From the NCBI GenBank assembly GCA_017517135.1, contig JAFXAK010000025.1, positions 1 through 49,914 of the forward strand: DNA of 49,914 nucleotides, written 5' to 3'. A model generated the notes under the pieces. That model saw nothing but the letters and a program-made list of their open reading frames with translations. It had not been told where the DNA came from and made no database searches. The position numbers and the translations under genes are program-made. The DNA is from Clostridia bacterium (GTDB lineage: Bacteria; Bacillota; Clostridia; Oscillospirales; Acutalibacteraceae). Shown here in pieces: positions 683 to 11,403 of this stretch (within the stretch, counting starts at the first letter, position 1; each line of letters begins with the position of its first letter).

Positions 683-889
683 ATGGCTGTTAGTTATAAA
701 AAACTCTGGAAGCTCTTGATTGACCACGATATGAAGAAAAAAGACCTTGCAAAGGTCGCAGATATCAGCAACTACACAATTACAAAAATGAGCAAGGGAG
801 AGAACGTTACTGTTGAGACCCTTGGCAAAATCTGCGCTGCATTGAATTGTGGTGTAGATGATATTATGGAATTCGTTCCGGAAGAATAA
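683..889 (+). CDS. XRE/Cro-family HTH regulator (68 aa)
   Basis: A single small helix-turn-helix domain fills the protein. Residues about 19-45 form the HTH (KKKDLAKVADIS, then SNYTITKMSKGE), followed by the typical closing segment LGKICAALNCGVDDI. This compact Cro/C1 type lacks a sensor domain. The start at 683 is chosen because GAGGTG lies just upstream; an upstream extension would overlap the promoter. It sits 13 bases before hsdM and probably represses its own promoter at 612-651, controlling the restriction operon in the manner of a C protein (inference). Such regulators typically delay restriction until methylation is established. Confidence 0.88.
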   Translation: MAVSYKKLWKLLIDHDMKKKDLAKVADISNYTITKMSKGENVTVETLGKICAALNCGVDDIMEFVPEE

Positions 890-902
890 GGTGGTAATAA
901 AT

Positions 903-2405
903 ATGGCTACAAATAATACAGCCGGAATCGGCTTTGAAAAACAGATATGGGATGCGGCCTGCGTATTGCGTGGTAATATGGATGCATCAGAATATAAATC
1001 TGTTGTACTTGGGCTTATTTTCCTCAAGTATATTTCTGACAGATTTGATGAAAAGTATCAGGCACTTGTCGCTGAAGGTGACGGATTCGAAGAAGATATA
1101 GACGAATACACTTCTGAAGGCATTTTCTTTGTACCCGAAAATGCACGTTGGAGTATTATTGCTTCAAATGCCCACACACCGGAAATCGGTACAATTATCG
1201 ATGAAGCTATGCGTGCAATTGAAAAGGAAAACAAACGTCTTAAAGATATTCTTCCGAAAAACTTTGCTCGTCCTGAATTAGACAAGCGCCGTCTTGGCGA
1301 TGTTGTTGACCTTTTTACAAACATTAAAATGGTTGATGCAGGCTCAAGTAAAGATATTCTCGGCAGAACTTATGAATACTGTCTTTCTAAATTTGCCGAA
1401 CAGGAAGGCAAACTTGCAGGTGAATTCTATACTCCCTCTTGTGTTGTTCGTACACTTGTTGAAGTTTTACAGCCATATAATGGTCGTGTTTATGACCCTT
1501 GCTGTGGTTCTGGCGGTATGTTTGTTCAGTCAGCAAAGTTTGTAGAGAACCATCGTGGTAATATCAATGATATTTCCGTGTATGGTCAGGACTCTAACCC
1601 TACCACTTGGAAAATGGCACAGATGAACCTGGCTATCCGTGGTATTGATGCTGATCTCGGCAAATTCAATGCTGACACTTTCTTTAACGATTGCCATCCT
1701 ACACTTCGTGCAGATTACATTATGGCAAATCCGCCTTTCAATCTTTCTGATTGGGGTGCAGACAAGCTCACAGATGATGTGCGTTGGCAGTACGGTATGC
1801 CACCTGCAGGTAATGCCAACTTTGCATGGCTTCAGCATATGATTCATCATCTTGCACCAAACGGTAAAATTGGTATGGTTCTTGCAAATGGCTCACTTTC
1901 ATCACAGTCCGGCGGTGAAGGAGAAATCCGCAAGAATATTATAAACGCTGATTTGGTGGAATGCATTATTGCGATGCCTACTCAGCTTTTCTATACAACA
2001 CAGATTCCTGTTTCCCTCTGGTTCCTTGCAAAGAACAAGAAGCAAAAGGGCAAGACCTTGTTTATTGATGCTCGTAAACTGGGTACAATGGTTACCCGAA
2101 AACTCAGAGAACTGACAGATGAAGATATTGCAAAAATTGCTGACACTTACAATGCATACGCTGACGGCACTCTTGAAAATGTAAAAGGCTTTTGTGCTGT
2201 TGTTGATACTGAAGAAATCGCAAAGCAGGATTATATCCTCACTCCCGGTCGTTATGTTGGTATCGAAGAACAGGAAGACGACGGCGAACCCTTTGAAGAA
2301 AAGATGACCAGACTGACCGATGAACTCTCTGAACTGTTCACGCAGTCTCATACGCTGGAGGATGAAATCCGGCAGAAGCTGGAGGCGATCGGATATGGCA
2401 TTTGA
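903..2405 (+). CDS. hsdM: Type I restriction-modification DNA methyltransferase subunit HsdM
   Basis: This 500-residue protein is the N6-adenine methyltransferase subunit of a type I system. It joins HsdS to methylate the bipartite target and joins HsdR to restrict unmodified DNA. Residues 1-165 match the HsdM N-terminal helical domain. The SAM-binding motif DPCCGSGG is at about 198-205 and the catalytic NPPF at about 276-279. The length is normal for the family. The ATG at 903 follows AAGGTGG with 8 bases of spacing, so the in-frame start at 858 inside the XRE gene is less likely. Its last 11 bases overlap the next gene, indicating translational coupling. Confidence 0.96.
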   Translation: MATNNTAGIGFEKQIWDAACVLRGNMDASEYKSVVLGLIFLKYISDRFDEKYQALVAEGDGFEEDIDEYTSEGIFFVPENARWSIIASNAHTPEIGTIIDEAMRAIEKENKRLKDILPKNFARPELDKRRLGDVVDLFTNIKMVDAGSSKDILGRTYEYCLSKFAEQEGKLAGEFYTPSCVVRTLVEVLQPYNGRVYDPCCGSGGMFVQSAKFVENHRGNINDISVYGQDSNPTTWKMAQMNLAIRGIDADLGKFNADTFFNDCHPTLRADYIMANPPFNLSDWGADKLTDDVRWQYGMPPAGNANFAWLQHMIHHLAPNGKIGMVLANGSLSSQSGGEGEIRKNIINADLVECIIAMPTQLFYTTQIPVSLWFLAKNKKQKGKTLFIDARKLGTMVTRKLRELTDEDIAKIADTYNAYADGTLENVKGFCAVVDTEEIAKQDYILTPGRYVGIEEQEDDGEPFEEKMTRLTDELSELFTQSHTLEDEIRQKLEAIGYGI

Positions 2406-2871
2406 GGATTATTCTGTAGTGAGCATAAAAGCGTTGGTTGAGCAAGCGTTACAGAAGCTATATGAGCAGGATTTATATTTGATTGTGAATCATCCGCGTG
2501 GAAACTCTCAAGATTGTCATGTTTCGGAAAGAGGTATTGTTTTTCGTTTTGGCATTTATCTTCAAGAATTGATCGCGACAACTCCGTTTAGTGAATTCAA
2601 TCTTGATGTTGAGTATAACCGCAATATGTATGAAAAGAAAATGTTGCCATCTTTTGCAAATGGCACTTTTCCTGATTTGATACTCCACAAAAGAGGAAGC
2701 AATGATCATAATGTTTTGATTCTTGAGTTTAAAACTTGGTGGAATTCTAATGCAACTGACGATAAGAAAAAGATAACTCAGTTTATGGATATTGATGGAA
2801 TTTATCGATATAAGTTAGGTGCTAGCATTGTCCTGAATCAAAAGGATTACGTAATTGCGTGGTTTGATTAA
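2395..2871 (+). CDS. Small PD-(D/E)XK nuclease-like protein inserted between hsdM and hsdS
   Basis: A 158-residue protein starting inside the end of hsdM. It shows a PD-(D/E)XK arrangement: Glu45 in a helix (SERGIVFRFGIYL), a VEYNRN segment near 72-77, PDLILH with Asp94, and LILEFKT with Glu111 and Lys113. From memory, this order (helix Glu, EYNR, PD, ExK) is shared by a set of small uncharacterised proteins on mobile elements. Catalytic residues appear intact. It is an unusual occupant of an hsd operon and could be an accessory nuclease, an anti-phage module or a passenger. Co-translation with hsdM favours a linked role (inference). An upstream in-frame start at 2320 was rejected as overlapping hsdM too far. 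Confidence 0.75.
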   Translation: MAFEDYSVVSIKALVEQALQKLYEQDLYLIVNHPRGNSQDCHVSERGIVFRFGIYLQELIATTPFSEFNLDVEYNRNMYEKKMLPSFANGTFPDLILHKRGSNDHNVLILEFKTWWNSNATDDKKKITQFMDIDGIYRYKLGASIVLNQKDYVIAWFD

Positions 2872-2956
2872 TTACTCATAATTGCGACACCACTATGCAC
2901 TACGTCATGGTGAAACAGCAAAATGTGAAAATAGTAGTACATAGGAGATATATAGG

Positions 2957-4147
2957 ATGAAAATACGATTAGAAGATTGCATAGAAACGACTATCGACAA
3001 CCGCGGTAGGAATCCAAAAGCATATTTTTCTCAGGAGAAATACCCTGTTATCGATAACTTCTTAATTAAGAATAGCTTGCACCCAGATATGAGCGCCGTT
3101 ACTCGATTCATTGACGAGGAAACATTTAACAACTTCCTTCGTGGGTATATACATAAAGACATGCCTATCATGACGCTTGTCGGAAATGGTATTGGCAATG
3201 TAACTCTTGCTCCGTCGGATGAATGCGCCATTATTCAGAATACTATTGGTTTTTTAGTTAATGAAAAAATCGATCAGATATACCTGTACTACTATTTTCT
3301 CTCTGAGCAGGAACGCATTAGAAAATTTGACAGAGGCAGCGGCCAACCAAGTATCCGCAAAACCGACATACTCGCAATGGAAATAGATATTCCAGACATA
3401 AAAACGCAAAAAAAGATAGCGGCTATATTGCGAGGAGTGGACGAGAAAATAGAGAGCAATAACTGCATAAACGATAATTTACAGCAGCAAGCACAAGCAG
3501 TGTTTTCTGCGTGGCTTGCCACCCACGCGCCGATTGCAGACGAGGTAACCCTTGGTAGCATATGCCTCAAGGTAACTGACGGATCCCATTTCAGCCCTAA
3601 AGATGAACCTTCTGCAAAAATCCCTATGCTTTCTGTTAAGGATATGGAGGAATTCGACTTTAACCTTACATCCTGCAAACACATCTCAGCTGTGGACTAT
3701 CAAAAAATGGTAGCCAATGACTGCGTTCCACAGGTAGATGATATCTTAGTTGCCAAAGATGGTAGCTACTTAAAAGAGATCTTTATTTGCAACGAACAAC
3801 GCGAACTGGCAATTCTATCATCCATTGCTATTTTCCGTCCCGATACTTCTATCATTTACCCGGAGATTTTGCTTGCTTTCCTCAAGAGTCCCCGCGTATT
3901 ACAAGAAGTTCGTGATAATTATGTTTCTGGATCAGCATTGCCAAGAATCGTTTTGAAAGACTTCAAAAAGTTGCAGTTTTTACTGCCTAATTTGACTGCA
4001 CAGGAAGAGATTGCACCCTTGCTGGCAGCTATTCGTTCGCAAATTGCTGTGAATGTGGCTGAAAACCAGCGGCTCAGCCAGTTGCGAGATGCGCTCCTAC
4101 CTAAGCTCATGTCTGGCGAGATAGATGTTTCTAACATTCAGCTTTAA
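2957..4147 (+). CDS. hsdS: Type I restriction-modification specificity subunit HsdS
   Basis: This 396-residue subunit decides the DNA target of the HsdM/HsdS and HsdR complexes. It has the usual two-fold layout: a first target-recognition domain (about 1-150), a central conserved helix (QKKIAAILRGVDEKIE, about 155-185), a second recognition domain (about 195-345) and a second conserved helix (QEEIAPLLAAIRSQI), ending LRDALLPKLMSGEIDV. The tail is typical of full-length HsdS, so the gene appears intact. Start ATG follows AGGAGATAT. The 85-base gap before it and the intervening small ORF separate it from hsdM. Whether inverted hsdS copies exist elsewhere cannot be seen here. Confidence 0.95.
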   Translation: MKIRLEDCIETTIDNRGRNPKAYFSQEKYPVIDNFLIKNSLHPDMSAVTRFIDEETFNNFLRGYIHKDMPIMTLVGNGIGNVTLAPSDECAIIQNTIGFLVNEKIDQIYLYYYFLSEQERIRKFDRGSGQPSIRKTDILAMEIDIPDIKTQKKIAAILRGVDEKIESNNCINDNLQQQAQAVFSAWLATHAPIADEVTLGSICLKVTDGSHFSPKDEPSAKIPMLSVKDMEEFDFNLTSCKHISAVDYQKMVANDCVPQVDDILVAKDGSYLKEIFICNEQRELAILSSIAIFRPDTSIIYPEILLAFLKSPRVLQEVRDNYVSGSALPRIVLKDFKKLQFLLPNLTAQEEIAPLLAAIRSQIAVNVAENQRLSQLRDALLPKLMSGEIDVSNIQL

Positions 4148-4210
4148 GCATCTGATTAATTATTCTCATTTAAGAACATATTTAGTTTATTTTACATAAA
4201 AGAGGTTACT

Positions 4211-5251
4211 ATGGATTTAAAAAAATCTGATTTTTCAATGATAGAAAATTTTCAATATGGAAAATCTTCTATAAGCAAAGCGACTATAAAATATCATTAC
4301 ACATCACCTTCCGCTTTTTTATCAATCATTCAATCTGGGAAAATTAGATTTACAGATACACACTTTTTGAATGATAGAAGTGAAATTGTATATTTCATTA
4401 AAGTGTTGTTGGATTTTTTGGAAATAAACGAAAATAAATACCCGTTATCGACAATATGTATTAAAGATTTGCTTAGCAATCATAGCTTGAATGACATTAA
4501 GGAGATGAATGTCGCTGATATTAAATTCAATTACAGTTTTGCAAAAATAAGTTCCAAAGGAGTAAAGCCAAAGCGCCATTATGTTTTTTGCTCATGTGGA
4601 GATTATGATAATTTAAACATGTGGAATTACTATGTTAATAACGGAAATTATCAAGGATATAACATTGGTTTTAATATCAAAAATCTTCTTAATGTGTTCT
4701 CATCTGTCGATAACAAAAATTATAATGATTTCAGAATATATTACGGTAAAGTCTTATATAAGCCAACAGAACAACAGAAAGAGATAGAATTTTTCTTAAA
4801 AATCATAGAAAAACTACTTTCGGAATCTATAGATTCTGTTAAAGACATTGCAAATGAAACATTAAAAGATAACTTTTTAAATTATGGAAAATTGTTGTTA
4901 CATAATTATATTGAAAAGACTTCCCCGTTTTTTAAAAGTAAAAAATTTTCAACAGAAGATGAATTTCGCATTGTTATTGAAATCAGCGAAGACTGTGTTC
5001 CAAAAAACGAACAAGAAGCCACATCATTTTTGGGTCCTGAAAACGGCAATATGTATGAAGAATTTTGTGCAAAAAACGGTCTTATTGTTCCTTTTATTCA
5101 AGTAGAAATCCCTAAAAACGCCATAAAGCAAATAACAGTATCTCCTATTATGGAGTTTGAAATAGCTGACAAAGGTATAAAAGAACTATTATTATGTAGC
5201 GGAATTGAAGATGTAGAAATTTTACATTCCGAAATACCTATTCGTTTTTAA
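4211..5251 (+). CDS. DUF2971-family protein between hsdS and hsdR
   Basis: A 346-residue protein. The N-terminus has YHYTS, then IIQSGKIRFTDTHFLNDRSE, which with FCSCGDYDNLNMWNYY (around 130) and a later EDEFRIVIE matches my memory of the DUF2971 family (YxYTs, flND..E, Fs...MW.hY, GfxI, ExExR). The biochemical role is not established. The spacing of Tyr-rich, Gly-Phe and ExExR segments loosely recalls ADP-ribosyltransferase folds, but that is a guess. It is clearly AT-richer than hsdR and hsdM, suggesting separate acquisition. Start ATG follows AAGAGG. It lies 16 bases before hsdR, in the place where many type I loci carry unrelated defence or toxin genes. Confidence 0.7.
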   Translation: MDLKKSDFSMIENFQYGKSSISKATIKYHYTSPSAFLSIIQSGKIRFTDTHFLNDRSEIVYFIKVLLDFLEINENKYPLSTICIKDLLSNHSLNDIKEMNVADIKFNYSFAKISSKGVKPKRHYVFCSCGDYDNLNMWNYYVNNGNYQGYNIGFNIKNLLNVFSSVDNKNYNDFRIYYGKVLYKPTEQQKEIEFFLKIIEKLLSESIDSVKDIANETLKDNFLNYGKLLLHNYIEKTSPFFKSKKFSTEDEFRIVIEISEDCVPKNEQEATSFLGPENGNMYEEFCAKNGLIVPFIQVEIPKNAIKQITVSPIMEFEIADKGIKELLLCSGIEDVEILHSEIPIRF

Positions 5252-5267
5252 TTAAGGAGGCATTGTT

Positions 5268-8200
5268 ATGCACTTCACAGAAGAATTATTTGAACAAGCG
5301 GTCATAGAGTTATTAGAAAAGATGGGCTATACCCATATCTATGCACCGGATATGAACAGAGAGGATTTTTCAAGTCCTCTTCTGGAATCGGCTCTTCTTG
5401 ACAGCCTTGTCCGCATCAATAAAGAACTGCCCATTGAAGCAATCAATGAAGCAATATACAAGCTCAAAAACTTTGAAAACGGAAGTCTTGTTCAGAAGAA
5501 TAAGACCTTTATGAGCTATTTGCAAAATGGCGTCGAGGTTAAATATTTCTTCAAGGGTGAAGAATGCTCTTCTATTGTTTATCTGATAGATTACAGCAAG
5601 GCAGAGAACAATACCTTCTACGCAGTTAACCAATATACATACATCGAAAACGGTAACAACCGTCGCCCTGATATAATTCTCTTTGTAAATGGTCTCCCTC
5701 TTGTTTTAATGGAACTGAAGAGTCCGTCCAAAGACGAAGTCGGTGCTGAAAATGCTTACAATCAGATACGCAACTACATGCAGGACATTCCGTCAATGTT
5801 CAATTACAATGCAATCTGTGTAATAAGTGATCTGACTGCCAATAAGGCAGGTACAATCACTTCAGGTCTTGACCGGTTTATGGATTGGAAATCAAAAGAC
5901 GGTATTGAAACTGTAACTTTAGCTGATTTTGAAACATTTTATGAAGGTATGTTCCAAAGAGAACGATTTCTTGATATTATTAAAAACTTTATTCTCTTTT
6001 CAGGTGATGCTCAGAATCCTATAAAGATTCTTGCAGGGTATCATCAGTATTTTGCTGTCAAAAAAGCTGTTGAAAGAGCAAAAATTGCAACTGCCACAGA
6101 CGGCAAAGGCGGCGTGTTCTGGCATACTCAGGGAAGCGGCAAATCACTATCAATGGTATTTTATGCTCACCTTTTGCAGGAGGCTTTAGACAGTCCGACC
6201 ATTGTTGTTATGACCGACAGAATTGACCTTGATGATCAATTGTATTCTCAATTTTCAAAGTGTGCTGACTTTCTCAGACAGACTCCGGTTCAGGCAGAAA
6301 GCAAAGTGCATTTGAAAGAACTTCTTGCAGGCAGACAGGCTAACGGTATTATTTTCACAACAATGTTTAAGTTTGAGGAAAGCGAAGAACCGCTTTCAAC
6401 TCGCAGAAATATTGTTGTTATGGCAGATGAAGCTCACCGTGGACAGTACGGCATGGACGAGCGTGTTGTATTGACTGAAAATGAGCAAGGCGAAGCCGAG
6501 GCTAGAATTGTCATAGGTAATGCACGTATTATCCGCGATGCACTTCCAAACGCAACATTCATCGGTTTTACAGGAACTCCGGTGTCGTCAAAAGACCGTA
6601 ATACCCGCGAAGTATTCGGTGAATATATTGATATTTACGATATGACTCAGGCTGTTGAAGACGGAGCAACACGTCCTGTTTACTACGAAAGCCGTGTAAT
6701 ACATCTTAAGTTGGATGAAAACACACTGAAACTTATCGACTCAACTTATGATGTTTTAGAGCAACAAGCTGATTCTGTAACCATTGAAAAGAGTAAGAAG
6801 ATGCTCGGTCAGATGGAAAGTGTTCTCGGTGCGGATTCAACTATTGAATCTCTTGTAGATGATATTGTTAAACACTATGAAAATGGCAGAGCAAATCTTC
6901 TGACAGGCAAGGCTATGATAGTTGCATATTCCAGACCGATTGCTATGAAGATATACCGCCGTATTATGGAAGTTAGACCTGACTGGAAAGAAAAAGTCGG
7001 CGTTGTTATGACAAGCGGTAACAATGACCCGGAAGACTGGAAAGAAATCATCGGAACAAAGCACCACAAAGAAGAACTTGCTCGTAAGTTCAAGGATAAC
7101 AACGATCCAATGAAAATTGCTATTGTTGTTGATATGTGGCTCACAGGTTTTGATGTTCCGTCTATGGCAACAATGTATGTCTATAAGCCAATGCACGGTT
7201 ACAACCTTATGCAGGCTATCGCACGAGTAAACCGAGTATTCAAGGACAAAGAAGGCGGTCTTGTTGTTGATTATGTTGGCATTGCTTCTGCTCTTAAAGC
7301 GGCAATGAATGAATACACCGCCCGTGACCGTTCAAGATACGGTGATATGGATATTGCAAAAACTGCATATCCTAAATTTCAGGAAAAACTGCATGTGTGC
7401 CGCGACTTGTTCCACGGTTTCGATTATAGCGGATTCATCAAGGGCTCTGCTCTTGAAATGGCGCAAGCAATTAAAAACGGTGTCAACTTTGTACTTGATG
7501 TAAAAGTCCCCGAAAGAAAAGATATGTATCTTAAAGAAGCATTGCTTATGAGACAGGCAATGTCGCTTTGTTCCAGTATGACAACTGATAAAGAACGTCG
7601 TGAGCAGGCATATTTTGAAGCCGTTCGTTCAGGCGTTATAAAGCTTATATACGGTGGTACTAACGGGAGACCGCTGTCACTTAAAGAAATCAATGCACAA
7701 ATCAACGAACTGCTGAAAGCAAGTATTCAGAGCGAAGGTGTTATTAACCTTTTTGACAGCAAAACAGTAGGTGAAAACTTCTCATTATTTGATCCCAACA
7801 TCTTGGAAGAAATCTCTAAGATGAAAGAAAAGAATATTGCTGTTGAAATATTGAGAAAGTTAATGGCAGAGCAGATATCACTTTACAAAAGAACTAATGT
7901 TGTTAAATCTGAAAAGTTCTCTGAAAAAATTGCAAAACTGATGAATGCTTATTATAACGGACTCATCACCAATGAGGAAGTAATAAAAGAGCTTCTTGAA
8001 GCAGCTCAGGAAATTGCAAATCTTCATAAAGAAGGAGAAAAGCTCGGCCTTACAACAGAAGAATTAGCTTTCTATGATGCACTTACAAAGCCACAAGCAA
8101 TTAAAGATTTTTACGAAAATGATGTGCTTGTTGAAATGACACGTGAATTAACAGAAATGCTTCGTAAAAACCGTACTATAGACTGGCAAAAGAAAGAAAC

Positions 8201-8333
8201 AGCCCGTGCTGGTATGCGTAAGATGGTTAAACGTTTGCTTAAAAAATATAAATATCCGCCTGAGGGTATGGATGATGCAGTTCAGACTGTTATGACTCAG
8301 TGCGAACTCTGGACGGATAATATGGAGGTGTAA
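5268..8333 (+). CDS. hsdR: Type I restriction endonuclease subunit HsdR
   Basis: The 1021-residue ATP-dependent translocase and nuclease subunit cuts unmodified DNA after translocation. The N-terminal nuclease motif is RPDIILF with Asp135 and LMELKS with Glu149 and Lys151. The helicase core follows: Walker A GSGKS (289-293), DEAH (387-390), FTGTP, and TGFDVPS with the QAIARVNR motif VI near 650. The remainder is the helical C-terminal region that contacts HsdM/S. Length and motifs are normal, so it should be active. AAGGAGG precedes the ATG. The next gene begins two bases after its stop, with its ribosome-binding site inside hsdR. Confidence 0.97.
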   Translation: MHFTEELFEQAVIELLEKMGYTHIYAPDMNREDFSSPLLESALLDSLVRINKELPIEAINEAIYKLKNFENGSLVQKNKTFMSYLQNGVEVKYFFKGEECSSIVYLIDYSKAENNTFYAVNQYTYIENGNNRRPDIILFVNGLPLVLMELKSPSKDEVGAENAYNQIRNYMQDIPSMFNYNAICVISDLTANKAGTITSGLDRFMDWKSKDGIETVTLADFETFYEGMFQRERFLDIIKNFILFSGDAQNPIKILAGYHQYFAVKKAVERAKIATATDGKGGVFWHTQGSGKSLSMVFYAHLLQEALDSPTIVVMTDRIDLDDQLYSQFSKCADFLRQTPVQAESKVHLKELLAGRQANGIIFTTMFKFEESEEPLSTRRNIVVMADEAHRGQYGMDERVVLTENEQGEAEARIVIGNARIIRDALPNATFIGFTGTPVSSKDRNTREVFGEYIDIYDMTQAVEDGATRPVYYESRVIHLKLDENTLKLIDSTYDVLEQQADSVTIEKSKKMLGQMESVLGADSTIESLVDDIVKHYENGRANLLTGKAMIVAYSRPIAMKIYRRIMEVRPDWKEKVGVVMTSGNNDPEDWKEIIGTKHHKEELARKFKDNNDPMKIAIVVDMWLTGFDVPSMATMYVYKPMHGYNLMQAIARVNRVFKDKEGGLVVDYVGIASALKAAMNEYTARDRSRYGDMDIAKTAYPKFQEKLHVCRDLFHGFDYSGFIKGSALEMAQAIKNGVNFVLDVKVPERKDMYLKEALLMRQAMSLCSSMTTDKERREQAYFEAVRSGVIKLIYGGTNGRPLSLKEINAQINELLKASIQSEGVINLFDSKTVGENFSLFDPNILEEISKMKEKNIAVEILRKLMAEQISLYKRTNVVKSEKFSEKIAKLMNAYYNGLITNEEVIKELLEAAQEIANLHKEGEKLGLTTEELAFYDALTKPQAIKDFYENDVLVEMTRELTEMLRKNRTIDWQKKETARAGMRKMVKRLLKKYKYPPEGMDDAVQTVMTQCELWTDNMEV

Positions 8334-8335
8334 AA

Positions 8336-9259
8336 ATGAAGCTCGGTAAATTAAAAGAATTAGATATCAGAACAGTATGGGCTCATGAGCAATATAACTT
8401 TTCAAAGTGGCTGGCTAGCGAAGAAAACATCAAAGAGCTTGGTGATGAATTGAATTTAGCATTAACTGATGTAGAAACTGAAAAATTTGTAGGTAATTAT
8501 CGCTGTGATATTCTCTGTAAAAATGAAATCACAGGTAAAGTTGTACTTATAGAAAATCAACTCGAAGCTACCAATCATGATCATCTTGGCAAAATTATAA
8601 CATATGCTTCAGGACTTGATGCGGCAGTTGTTGTATGGATTGTGGCTTCTGCCAGACAGGAACACGCAAGTGCAATTGAATGGCTCAATAAGCACACCAG
8701 CGATGATTTGTCTTTCTTCTTAATAGAGGTTCACGCGTACACTATCGGCAATTCTGAACCGGCACCTATGTTTAAGATAATAGAACAGCCAAATGATTTT
8801 GCTAAAAGTGTAAAAGCTATATCAAAAAATTCAGAGTTGAGTGTAGCTCAACAAAAAAGATTGGAATTTTGGACACAGTTAAATGAGGTTTTAGAGCAAC
8901 GTGGCAAACCCTTTAACAAACGTAAGGCAACAACAGACCATTAGTACTCCGTTGCTATGGGGTCCTCCGAATGCCATATATCTATGGATCTTGTTAACAA
9001 AGAACATAAAATCCGAGTTGGTATATGGATTGCCGATAATAAAGAGTTATACGATCAATTTTATGCTCATAAAGAAGAAATTGAAGCTTCATGTGGCTTT
9101 GAGTTATATTGGGATAGGCTTGATGATAAAAAAGCTTCATTAGCTTGTACATATATCCAGGGGCTTGATTTTGATAATCAAGATAACTATCCTGATCTTA
9201 TAAACAGAGCTATTGACTTGGTGTTAACTTTAAAGAAAGCGTTTGTACTATTTTTATAA
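8336..9259 (+). pseudogene. DUF4268-type PD-(D/E)XK protein interrupted by one in-frame TAG
   Basis: Codons 1-202 encode a nuclease-like domain: YRCDIL with Asp58 and LIENQLE with Glu73 and Gln75, then HDHLGKIITYA, a PD-(D/E)XK variant with Gln for Lys. The frame is stopped by TAG at 8942-8944, but continues in the same frame without shift: SVAMGSSECHISM, then IRVGIWIADNKELY and ELYWDRLDDKKASL, which look like the C-terminal DUF4268 domain. A one-base change (TGG to TAG) would restore Trp and a protein of 307 residues. So the gene carries a nonsense mutation, is read through, or acts as two pieces (an ATG at 8957 could restart). It follows hsdR by two bases and was probably part of the operon. 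Confidence 0.75.
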
Positions 9260-9304
9260 TGTTGTTCGTATTTAATAAATAGAATTTTTTATGAGGTGAA
9301 GATA

Positions 9305-9727
9305 ATGAAAGAAGGAAAAACAGAATATTTACAAATGTTACAAGAACCAATTTGTAGAATGTCTACAATATCTGCTATTTTTAAAGGCTTTGCAGCTTCT
9401 ATTGTTGCGGGAATTTCTGTAATTACATATTCAACGACAGATTTATGGATTTTAGGACTATCTTTTCTTCCTGTTTTAGCTTTTGCAGTTTTAGATATTT
9501 ATTATTTGAAATTAGAAAGAAAGTTTAGATTTTTGTTTGAACAAGTGCGATTGGATAAACATGAAATAGATTTTTCAATGAAACTAACGACCGATCCGTT
9601 GGAAATTATTAGTGCAAAGGCTAGAACTTGGGATTGTATTAAATCACCTAGTATCTATTTGTTTTATCCATTGATGTTGCTTATATTGATTATAGTGTTC
9701 GTATTAAAGTGCATAAAGGCAATCTGA
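9305..9727 (+). CDS. Small three-helix membrane protein, TIR-associated (140 aa)
   Basis: Hydrophobic segments lie at about 22-41, 47-66 and 115-137, with a charged stretch between. The second helix runs into LDIYYLKLERKFRFLFEQVR. From memory, this LD-x-YYL-x2-ER-x-FR signature marks a common family of small membrane proteins near TIR-type and other defence genes. Start 9305 is preferred over GTG 9296 because GAGGTGA lies at 9293-9299. Seventeen bases separate it from the TIR gene. In known TIR systems the TIR enzyme makes an NAD-derived signal that activates a separate effector, and many effectors are membrane proteins. This one could be the effector (inference). It has no recognisable nucleotide-sensing domain. 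Confidence 0.7.
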   Translation: MKEGKTEYLQMLQEPICRMSTISAIFKGFAASIVAGISVITYSTTDLWILGLSFLPVLAFAVLDIYYLKLERKFRFLFEQVRLDKHEIDFSMKLTTDPLEIISAKARTWDCIKSPSIYLFYPLMLLILIIVFVLKCIKAI

Positions 9728-9744
9728 TAAGAGGGTGTTATTTC

Positions 9745-10332
9745 ATGATAAAAATATTTGAACATGGTGCTTTTTCTACATATTCTCAGGTGCGTTTAGA
9801 TGAATCTCGTTCATCTGTTTTGGAACATTCACAGTATGGGGTTCGTAGTAAAACAACAGTATTCATTTCTCATAAGCATGACGATCTTGAAGACTTGAAA
9901 GGTATATTAGGCTTTTTGCAACAAAGATATGGAGTAAAGGTTTATATTGATAGTCAAGACCCTTCTATGCCACCAACAACATCAGCCGAAACCGCTTTAA
10001 ACATTAAGGAACGAATTAAACAATGCAATAAGTTTATTCTTCTTGCAACAAACGGAGCTATAGAATCAAAATGGTGTAATTGGGAATTGGGATATGGAGA
10101 TGCACAAAAATTTAAGAAAAATATTGCGTTATTTCCTATGAAACCCAAAGGGGCATATGATAGTGCTTATAAAGGCTCTGAATATATGAGCATATATCCA
10201 TATATTGCTTATTTTGATGGTACAGAAAAATATAAAAGTGGAAGACCTATTGAGAGAGGATATTATGTCCGCACTCATGAAAAAGATGGTAATTATATTA
10301 CTCCTCTTGTTGATTGGTTTAATGATGTATAA
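9745..10332 (+). CDS. TIR-domain protein, probable NAD-processing defence enzyme (195 aa)
   Basis: A TIR domain spans residues about 36-150: strand A TVFISHKHDDLED, then VKVYIDSQD, a KFILLAT strand, and WCNWELGYG, whose Glu114 fits the catalytic glutamate position. Prokaryotic TIR domains hydrolyse or cyclise NAD+. About 35 residues precede the domain and about 45 follow it, with no second fused domain, so it must act with partners. GAGGGTG precedes ATG 9745. Fourteen bases separate it from the next TIR gene. Association with 9305 and 10347 suggests a three-gene unit. Confidence 0.88.
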   Translation: MIKIFEHGAFSTYSQVRLDESRSSVLEHSQYGVRSKTTVFISHKHDDLEDLKGILGFLQQRYGVKVYIDSQDPSMPPTTSAETALNIKERIKQCNKFILLATNGAIESKWCNWELGYGDAQKFKKNIALFPMKPKGAYDSAYKGSEYMSIYPYIAYFDGTEKYKSGRPIERGYYVRTHEKDGNYITPLVDWFNDV

Positions 10333-10346
10333 AGGAGGAAATTGCG

Positions 10347-10913
10347 TTGGGTCGCAAAGTTTTTGTTTCTTATAAATTTAAAGACAACGATGTGAAAATG
10401 TTGTCGGGCGTTACTCAGCCAACATGGCCGTGCGATTATGTGGATTACATAAAAGAAAATGTATTATCTGATGATGATATTTATAAGGGTGAAGAAAGTA
10501 ATGAAGATATATCATCTTGGAGTGAATATGCTATTTGGGAACATTTAAAAGGGAAGATTTATGATAGTTCAATTACTATTGTGTTAATTTCACCAAATAT
10601 GAAAGAATACGGCAAATGGCAACGCTCACAATGGATTCCATGGGAGATAAGTTATTCCGTAAAAGAAACGGTTCGTAATGACCGAAAAAGCCACAGAAAT
10701 GCCATTTTGGCTGTTATTCTGCCAGATAAATTAGGTTCATATGACTATTATGATAAAAATAATCTTTTCCCTATATTGAAAGAAAATATAAACAGTGGAT
10801 ACATATATGTTGTAACTTGGGAGGATTTTTTGAAATATCCTCGGGTGGATATGGATATTGCGTTTAGTTGTATGGGAAAAACGCCTGATTATAAAATTAC
10901 AAAATCGTTATAA
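10347..10913 (+). CDS. ThsB-type TIR-like protein (188 aa)
   Basis: Residues 1-185 match the ThsB/DUF1863 TIR-like family: KVFVSYKFKDND at the start, a GEESNEDIS loop, SSITIVLISPNMKE, QWIPWEISYSVKE with Glu100 at the expected catalytic position, then NAILAVILPD and a GSYDYY segment. In Thoeris, ThsB makes a cyclic-ADP-ribose-type signal on infection and activates ThsA, an NADase or membrane effector. No ThsA-like gene is visible here. The start is TTG at 10347, with AAAGGAGG at 10331-10338, 8 bases away; no ATG is as well placed. It is the last gene of the island's plus-strand run. Confidence 0.85.
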   Translation: MGRKVFVSYKFKDNDVKMLSGVTQPTWPCDYVDYIKENVLSDDDIYKGEESNEDISSWSEYAIWEHLKGKIYDSSITIVLISPNMKEYGKWQRSQWIPWEISYSVKETVRNDRKSHRNAILAVILPDKLGSYDYYDKNNLFPILKENINSGYIYVVTWEDFLKYPRVDMDIAFSCMGKTPDYKITKSL

Positions 10914-10942: not shown

Positions 10943-10971
10943 TTGACATATACTTTTATATGTGCTACAAT
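10943..10971 (+). promoter_or_regulatory. Strong sigma-A promoter for the island ncRNA
   Basis: TTGACA (10943-10948), 17 bases, TACAAT (10966-10971), with TGC directly before the -10 (extended -10). Start of transcription is expected near 10978. It lies 30 bases after the ThsB-like gene. Confidence 0.8.
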
Positions 10972-10977
10972 TCATTT

Positions 10978-11301
10978 GCAATTGTAAATGAAGAGTGTTT
11001 CAGGTGGGTGTGAATCCGCCGGGGTTTGTGTTTTTGTTCTGTGATACTGTGATTGATACGGTTTCTCGGCAAAAAACTTAAAAACTTCAGTTTTGCCCCC
11101 TCAGAAACCCTTATTTTACGTGCCTTTTCACAAGTTAAATATCAAAACTAAGTGAGTGGGAATAATAAAACCAAGTAGCGGAAGCGTTGATATACCTCAA
11201 ATTTGCGTTTTCAATGAAACTCTGAGGCAACGCTCCGGTAACATTTGAATATCATAAAAATTAAGAGCTAACTGATTTTAAATGTCAGTCAGCTCTTTTT
11301 T
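10978..11301 (+). ncRNA. Candidate structured non-coding RNA, about 320 nt, unknown family
   Basis: Bracketed by a consensus promoter and a terminator, with no plausible ORF. Foldable elements in order: GGTGG/CCGCC around a GTGTGAAT loop (about 11003-11020); GGTTTCT/AGAAACC enclosing GGCAAAA/TTTTGCC (about 11060-11110); GGAAGCGTTG/CAACGCTCC enclosing CCTCA/TGAGG and GTTT/GAAAC (about 11178-11237); then the terminator. It has none of the signature sequences I know for RNase P, tmRNA, SRP or 6S RNA. The next gene points the other way, so it is not an ordinary riboswitch leader. Adjacency to the TIR genes may be functional or incidental. Confidence 0.65.
11263..11301. terminator. Intrinsic terminator of the ncRNA
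   Basis: AAGAGCTAACTGA (11263-11275) pairs with TCAGTCAGCTCTT (11285-11297) apart from one unpaired position, followed by TTTT. On the minus strand it is followed by AATTTTTATG, so it may also end the leftward sigma/membrane-protein operon. Confidence 0.85.
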
Positions 11302-11403
11302 ACATTTTAATTAACAGCATATAAATACTTATTATTGCATTTAGTGTTACAACACAAGAAAATGTTCCCCTCCACAACAAAACACATAACAATATTTTCT
11401 TTA

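Follow-up and report, generated by a model that had tools for sequence, protein, structure and literature searches.

What chiefly distinguishes the known types of Thoeris defense is the effector responding to the TIR signal. The type II effector, a TM-macro ThsA, is made to oligomerize and disturb the membrane by His-ADPR, according to the accessible part of PMC12847820. In the Staphylococcus aureus ThsA-B1-B2 system, as far as the available text of PMC12578639 describes it, ThsB1 binds the capsid protein of a phage and brings in ThsB2, without whose Glu no signal is made, so that one TIR protein senses and the other synthesizes. Phages also carry pairs of a TIR protein and a 2TM SLATT protein, in which the 2TM protein was predicted by sequence analysis to be an ADPr-controlled membrane effector (PMC9503650, accessible portion). 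With this predicted pairing, the general idea of a TIR protein coupled to a small membrane protein is already in print.

Here, we analyzed a 49,914 nt stretch of DNA from a Clostridia bacterium (in the following called the window), in which three closely spaced genes encode a small membrane protein (TM) and two TIR proteins (TIR1 and TIR2). In an ORF check of the window, all three genes were located on the same strand, separated by gaps of only 17 and 14 bases. The genes and the Shine-Dalgarno-like stretches preceding them are:

9293–9299: Shine-Dalgarno-like stretch before TM, GAGGTGA
9305–9727, + strand, start codon ATG: TM, small membrane protein of 140 amino acids, PADLOC PDC-M50A family, predicted effector
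9730–9737: Shine-Dalgarno-like stretch before TIR1, AGAGGGTG
9745–10332, + strand, start codon ATG: TIR1, 195 amino acids, companion-TIR family, Glu114/Phe40
10332–10339: Shine-Dalgarno-like stretch before TIR2, AAGGAGGA
10347–10913, + strand, start codon TTG: TIR2, 188 amino acids, ThsB-class TIR, Glu100/Phe6

An earlier sequence-only reading had described this arrangement as a three-helix protein followed by TIR proteins with Glu114 and Glu100 in place, and the ORFs, profiles, alignments and structure model all agree with that description. Compared with defense-system models, as that reading had suggested, the three proteins were assigned by PADLOC to PDC-M50A, ThsB and ThsB.

Upstream of the trio, type I restriction genes occupy positions 858–8333 of the window, with HsdM at 906–2405, the specificity subunit at 2957–4147 and HsdR at 5268–8333; a DUF2971 gene and, by eye, a nuclease-like ORF lie among them. 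The gene directly upstream of the trio (PADLOC PDC-S11, DUF4268) consists of two ORFs, 8336–8944 and 8957–9259, and looks broken because these match successive parts of one profile. Since the trio lies on the same strand as the restriction genes, a single long defense transcription unit is possible. Downstream of the trio, the region 10943–11308 contains a strong promoter-like site (11 of 12), and ~330 nt fold better than shuffled sequences (z −3.4), ending in a hairpin and a T run. No Rfam family scored above the gathering score here, and no match was found in plasmids or in the other compared loci. This element is possibly a small RNA.

The assignment of both TIR proteins to the Thoeris ThsB class was consistent across several resources. 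In Pfam, TIR1 matched TIR_2 with 40.5 bits (cut-off 28) and ThsB_TIR with 22.1 bits (cut-off 21.2), while TIR2 matched ThsB_TIR with 25.3 bits (cut-off 21.2). The respective PADLOC ThsB models are PDLC00423 for TIR1 (6.8e-86) and PDLC00428 for TIR2 (6.8e-60). Searching the PDB, we found 8btn_B for TIR1 (5.9e-17) and 9vyl_A, “Putative cyclic ADP-D-ribose synthase TIR1”, for TIR2 (5.5e-39 with the sequence alone and 2.6e-86 with a profile), 9vyl being the nearest solved structure for the TIR2 class. The name in this entry belongs to a two-TIR Bacillus Thoeris. Glu114 and Glu100 both lie within WxxxE motifs. Glu114 and Phe40 of TIR1 are invariant in a mixed TIR alignment of 10 rows, as are Glu100 and Phe6 of TIR2 in a TIR2-clade alignment of 7 rows. 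In S. aureus Thoeris, a putative catalytic Glu was identified opposite a comparable Phe, according to the available text of PMC12578639. Judged from sequence, both proteins of the window are thus Thoeris ThsB-class TIRs that keep the putative catalytic Glu. By analogy to S. aureus, one of them may sense and the other synthesize. As both keep their Glu, there may also be two enzymes, and that the two TIRs serve different triggers, as proposed in the sequence-only reading, is one option.

A ThsA gene is missing from the operon, and we found none in the host genome either (2.27 Mb, 42 contigs, 94% complete). STALD domains were absent from the host genome in a search that was positive in another genome (G055), and the ThsA_Macro model PF20016, which matches two of the compared loci (L062 and L102) by hmmscan, found nothing there. 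One SIR2-STALD ThsA protein, used as query without a positive control, likewise gave no host-genome match, and no type III ThcA was detected in this genome. The previously noted absence of a SIR2/SLOG or macro ThsA therefore holds for both operon and genome, and a ThsA-like gene just outside the trio, which would have altered the picture, was not found across the host genome.

The TM protein matched PADLOC PDC-M50A (PDLC04686, 1.2e-26), also in a search of its own genome, and thus represents the PDC-M50A membrane component. Its structure model (mean pLDDT 88.3) shows three long helices at residues 5–40, 54–82 and 115–136, with hydrophobicity peaks at residues 22–40, 47–65 and 119–137. Among 25 TM proteins, no variation was seen at R18, K27 and E71 and almost none at Q13, I16, M19, F60, L68 and R75; with viral relatives added, R18 is the sole invariant residue. 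Following the helix limits of the model, R18, K27, E71 and R75 are placed at those ends of helices 1 and 2 that are predicted to face the cytosol; a gate or a ligand-binding site could be located there. A profile search detected no recognizable nucleotide-binding domain in TM, and the PDB contained no sequence match and no significant fold match. The SLATT models of Pfam matched none of the 25 family members at E ≤ 10, while one relative matched NCBIfam SLATT_4 weakly (E 0.13). The Pfam family 8xMP (PF24838) matched five of the 25 members, all below the cut-off of 30 bits; the best was L005 with 25.3 bits over nearly the full length, and L013 reached 17.4 bits, also over nearly the full length. 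The TM protein of the window itself did not match 8xMP, and hhalign comparisons of the TM family with 8xMP gave probabilities of 43 and 0.5. From these sequence comparisons, a distant kinship of TM with SLATT or with 8xMP is conceivable. 8xMP genes neighbor ThsB_TIR genes in two loci (L107 and L108), and in a third a TIR domain and 8xMP are fused in one protein of 302 amino acids (L110:1453–2361). In another locus, TM forms the C-terminal part of an ORF of 370 amino acids with an unrecognized N-terminal part (L002:1580–2692).

To what extent TM and TIR genes belong together was examined by searching for TM homologs regardless of TIRs (TM-led searches), with a neighbor window of 1.5 kb. In 30 of 37 distinct loci, a TIR or SEFIR gene was located within this distance, and in 28 of these 30 the nearest gap was ≤50 bases. 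The 37 loci comprise 36 plus L040, whose pair was counted from annotation; five weak matches (L015, L016, L017, L054 and L055), which had no TIR nearby, were left out. This survey of TM neighborhoods, likewise suggested in the sequence-only reading, established that TM + TIR recurs widely. All six loci from named genomes had a TIR or SEFIR gene in this 1.5-kb neighborhood, with one TM gene and one TIR gene cut short. In 391 genomes of the class, we identified 11 TM matches, eight of them with a TIR nearby, the other three being the weakest matches. Across the phylum (398 genomes), with all matches kept, a TIR was nearby in five of 13 cases; those lacking one were six members of a single clade and two weak matches with stops. 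Among plasmid and phage records, 13 of the 14 examined (of 30 with a TM match) had a TIR within 1.5 kb. Taking all 58 TM genes together (TIR-led searches included, duplicates removed), 50 had a TIR or SEFIR neighbor no more than 1.5 kb away, with the nearest gap ≤50 bases in 48 and the same strand in 49 of them. The WxxxE motif was present in 62 of 67 neighboring TIR-type ORFs, fragments included, compared to 27% with shuffled letters. TM + TIR pairs occur in several bacterial phyla, one archaeon, plasmids and a phage. The latter, the 14-kb Vibrio phage 10N.286.55.A5_PE002, encodes a ThsB-like TIR and TM directly after an integrase-like gene (L042:1347–2635).

Seven of the 37 loci are exceptions without a TIR, six of them forming one clade (L046–L050 and L052). 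The seventh lies on a Piscirickettsia plasmid, where an IS30 element cuts the TM gene in a prophage-like region and no TIR was found (L036:3498–3863). Two of the six clade members are near contig ends, and the clade is mostly found among restriction-type genes. In its wider neighborhoods (L067–L072), Pfam scans, one of them covering six proteins from four of the six loci, yielded matches to DUF499, DUF1156, ResIII, N6_Mtase and patatin, and in L050 the TM gene adjoins a DUF2188 protein. The existence of this clade means that a TIR is not obligatory for the TM family and that there is a second, TIR-free setting.

We further asked how constant the TIR partners are. On one viral contig (L079), TIR1-type, TM and TIR2-class genes lie side by side, the TIR1-type protein sharing 29% identity with TIR1 of the window. 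Two Sulfitobacter plasmids (L041 and L123) combine TM with a third ThsB-type TIR and a TIR1-type protein. In a tree of 56 TM proteins (without the truncated L006, the weak L015 and second copies of one place), a minimum of 16 changes is needed to explain the label “nearest TIR class, or none”, with 5 being the least possible and 29 the shuffled mean; support is weak for 18 of 53 inner branches, and on the starred branches alone fewer changes are forced, namely six for the TIR2 class, four for TIRB and three for TIRC. The link between TM and TIR hence survives the exchange of the TIR, a pattern that a common signal would allow.

Searches that start from TIR proteins favor TIR partners, but they reveal other occupants of the effector slot. 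The TIR2 class (A3) yielded ten matches in the 391 genomes, six strong and four weak. Five of the strong matches were near a TM gene and the sixth (L073) adjoined a SIR2+STALD ThsA, while one of the weak ones (L062) was found with a ThsA_Macro gene. In viral contigs, four of six TIR2-class loci contained TM; of the other two, L082 had a SIR2+STALD gene and L084 a DUF4231/SLATT_1 protein. For a TIR class of 265 amino acids (A5), 17 of 22 viral loci possessed a TM gene, a count that includes two near-identical pairs; the others had SIR2+STALD (L100), ThsA_Macro (L102), patatin-SLOG (L098) or no recognized effector (L094), or ended at the TIR gene (L090). Relatives of TIR1 on plasmids had a further TIR gene no more than 4 kb away in eight of the nine cases examined (of 64 records). 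These loci contained SIR2+STALD (L127 and L128), a caspase (L125), TM (L123) or, by annotation, a TPR protein (L126) or a CBASS-type phospholipase (L131), and two had no recognized effector (L124 and L129). The Cupriavidus locus L127 combines the SIR2+STALD gene with a TIR2-class gene (9e-86) and a TIR1-type gene and is, by sequence comparison, the TIR pair of the window with ThsA replacing TM. Because related TIRs adjoin SIR2-STALD ThsA, macro ThsA, caspase or patatin-SLOG proteins elsewhere, TM occupies the effector position. The earlier suggestion that the short membrane protein is the effector is therefore likely.

One TM gene is accompanied by three separate TIR genes and a protein of 639 amino acids with TIR and SLOG domains (L074:4114–9131), which the ThcB4 and ThcA models match below their cut-offs. 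A viral contig encodes a patatin-SLOG protein, assigned by Pfam, among several TIR genes, one of them TIR1-type (L098:2241–7398), and a Klebsiella plasmid has a phospholipase gene, by annotation, among TIR genes (L131:3995–8073). The patatin-SLOG protein and the phospholipase are perhaps further effectors of the same scheme.

With ThsB_TIR above the cut-off, PADLOC ThsB models and conserved Glu residues, the window contains the ThsB component of Thoeris. Type I systems with multiple ThsBs (S. aureus ThsA-B1-B2; the “TIR1” of 9vyl) likewise combine two ThsB-class TIRs with one candidate effector, and the TIR2 class also adjoins SIR2-STALD ThsA (L073, L082 and L127). However, the type I effector is a SIR2-SLOG ThsA and the candidate here a membrane protein of 140 amino acids, which places the trio outside this type. 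Type II shares ThsB-class TIRs and a membrane-located effector, predicted in our case, but its macro domain is absent from the 140-amino-acid protein and, by PF20016, from the host genome, so the trio does not belong there either. Type III (NCBIfam ThcA/ThcB4) shares several TIRs per locus, and a weak match of TIR1 to ThcB4 (25.3 bits, cut-off 220) brought it into consideration. We rejected this assignment, as ThcA is absent here and ThcB4 stays below the cut-off; in genome G121, where a TM gene lies near a TIR-SLOG protein, ThcB4 and ThcA both match below their cut-offs and the ThcA match overlaps the SLOG domain. A TIR1-type companion is present in a TIR-caspase locus (L125) as in type IV, whereas a Pfam scan of the trio’s three proteins found no caspase, setting it apart from that type as well. 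The TIR-SLATT phage pairs resemble the window in having a TIR beside a small membrane protein, and L084 is one such pair.

Compared by component models, the closest entry is the PADLOC candidate PDC-M50, which shares the PDC-M50A membrane protein. Its listed partner PDC-M50B (PDLC04688) matches TM-adjoining proteins in genomes G353 (8.1e-68) and G266 (8.5e-50), which in turn score 99.7 and 75.9 bits against ThsB_TIR. PDC-M50B being a ThsB_TIR protein, TM + TIR is already a listed candidate. The PDLC04688 model had no match in the host genome at E ≤ 1, and the partners in the window are two other TIR classes. By these sequence criteria, the window is a version of the catalogued TM + TIR pair with two other TIR classes. 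In a literature search, mostly of papers outside subscription, we found none naming PDC-M50, and among the matches listed on Thoeris, ThsB and membrane effectors there was no functional study of such a TM. The claim of a new TIR signaling system is thus supported in part: the trio is a real unit lacking ThsA, and the TM + TIR pairing recurs, but the PDC-M50A/M50B entry, the assignment of both TIRs to ThsB classes and the published SLATT idea speak against a categorically new system. The trio is a variant of Thoeris-type signaling, catalogued in part; it is a real and recurrent TIR immune operon, probably a functional one, with a membrane protein in the effector slot.

We consider it reasonably probable that this operon mediates Thoeris-like anti-phage TIR signaling, leading to abortive infection through a membrane-disrupting effector. 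The two TIRs would detect infection, either as a sensing and synthesizing pair or in response to separate triggers, and one or both would turn NAD into an ADP-ribose-derived signal. This signal, or contact with the activated TIRs, would activate TM in the place of ThsA, and TM would oligomerize and breach the membrane. We propose that the cell consequently stops before phage progeny form. The outcome at the membrane would be like that of type II ThsA, here without a macro domain. The gene layout, the ThsB class, the conserved catalytic residues, the recurrence of TM + TIR with partner exchange and the ThsA-adjoining relatives were observed directly; that the TIRs are active, which signal they make, how TM is switched on, that it damages the membrane as an effector and that the operon protects against phage is inferred.

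A different use of the same proteins, in which the TIRs are toxins that deplete NAD directly once activated and TM anchors, scaffolds or restrains them, appears unlikely. It has a precedent in TIR NADases such as SpbK, which act directly according to the accessible part of PMC12847820, and it would fit a small TM in which no ligand domain was found. However, both TIRs are of the ThsB class with relatives adjoining separate effectors, the layout of signal producers, and one TM family serves unlike TIR classes, which is not what one would expect of a dedicated binding partner. The frequent exchange of TIR classes favors a shared small-molecule language and so also speaks against gating of TM through direct contact with a phage-triggered TIR complex, without a diffusible signal. 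We regard such gating as rather improbable, even though ThsB1, ThsB2 and the capsid protein form a complex in S. aureus (PMC12578639, available text) and the conserved charged residues at the TM helix ends could serve as a docking face.

That the three defense genes form no unit and are chance neighbors in an island following the type I restriction genes is already disfavored and seems very improbable to us. The restriction genes directly upstream and the TIR-less TM clade among mostly restriction-type genes speak for chance, but TM-led loci contain a TIR in the large majority of cases across several bacterial phyla and one archaeon, and the three classes recur together in L079. Moreover, TIR_2 matches are scarce, 12 in 12 genomes, although this model misses many ThsB-class TIRs. 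We give the least credit to the idea that TIR1 and TIR2 are orphan extra ThsBs serving a ThsA elsewhere in the host genome. Several ThsBs are possible per Thoeris locus (PMC11204291, accessible portion), but with no STALD, ThsA_Macro or SIR2-STALD ThsA found in the nearly complete host genome, we rejected it.

Returning to the signaling operon with a membrane effector, we tentatively suggest a wider view, to which we assign somewhat less than an even chance. PDC-M50A-type TM proteins might constitute a further class of Thoeris effectors that is opened by a TIR-made, NAD-derived signal without a separate ligand domain and swaps freely with SIR2, macro, patatin-SLOG and caspase effectors within a common pool of sensor TIRs, while TIR1-type proteins would be add-on TIRs across types.

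As far as we searched, a TM + TIR operon of the window’s type is catalogued in part, without a published characterization found. If our interpretation is correct, the minimal three-helix TM in the effector position would be a very small effector of the Thoeris kind that occurs in bacteria, an archaeon, plasmids and a phage. It would allow a direct test of how an ADP-ribose signal is read by a protein in which no ligand domain is obvious. The pattern of partner exchange suggests a signal language common to TIRs and effectors, as well as a use of TIR1-type companion TIRs in several types of Thoeris.
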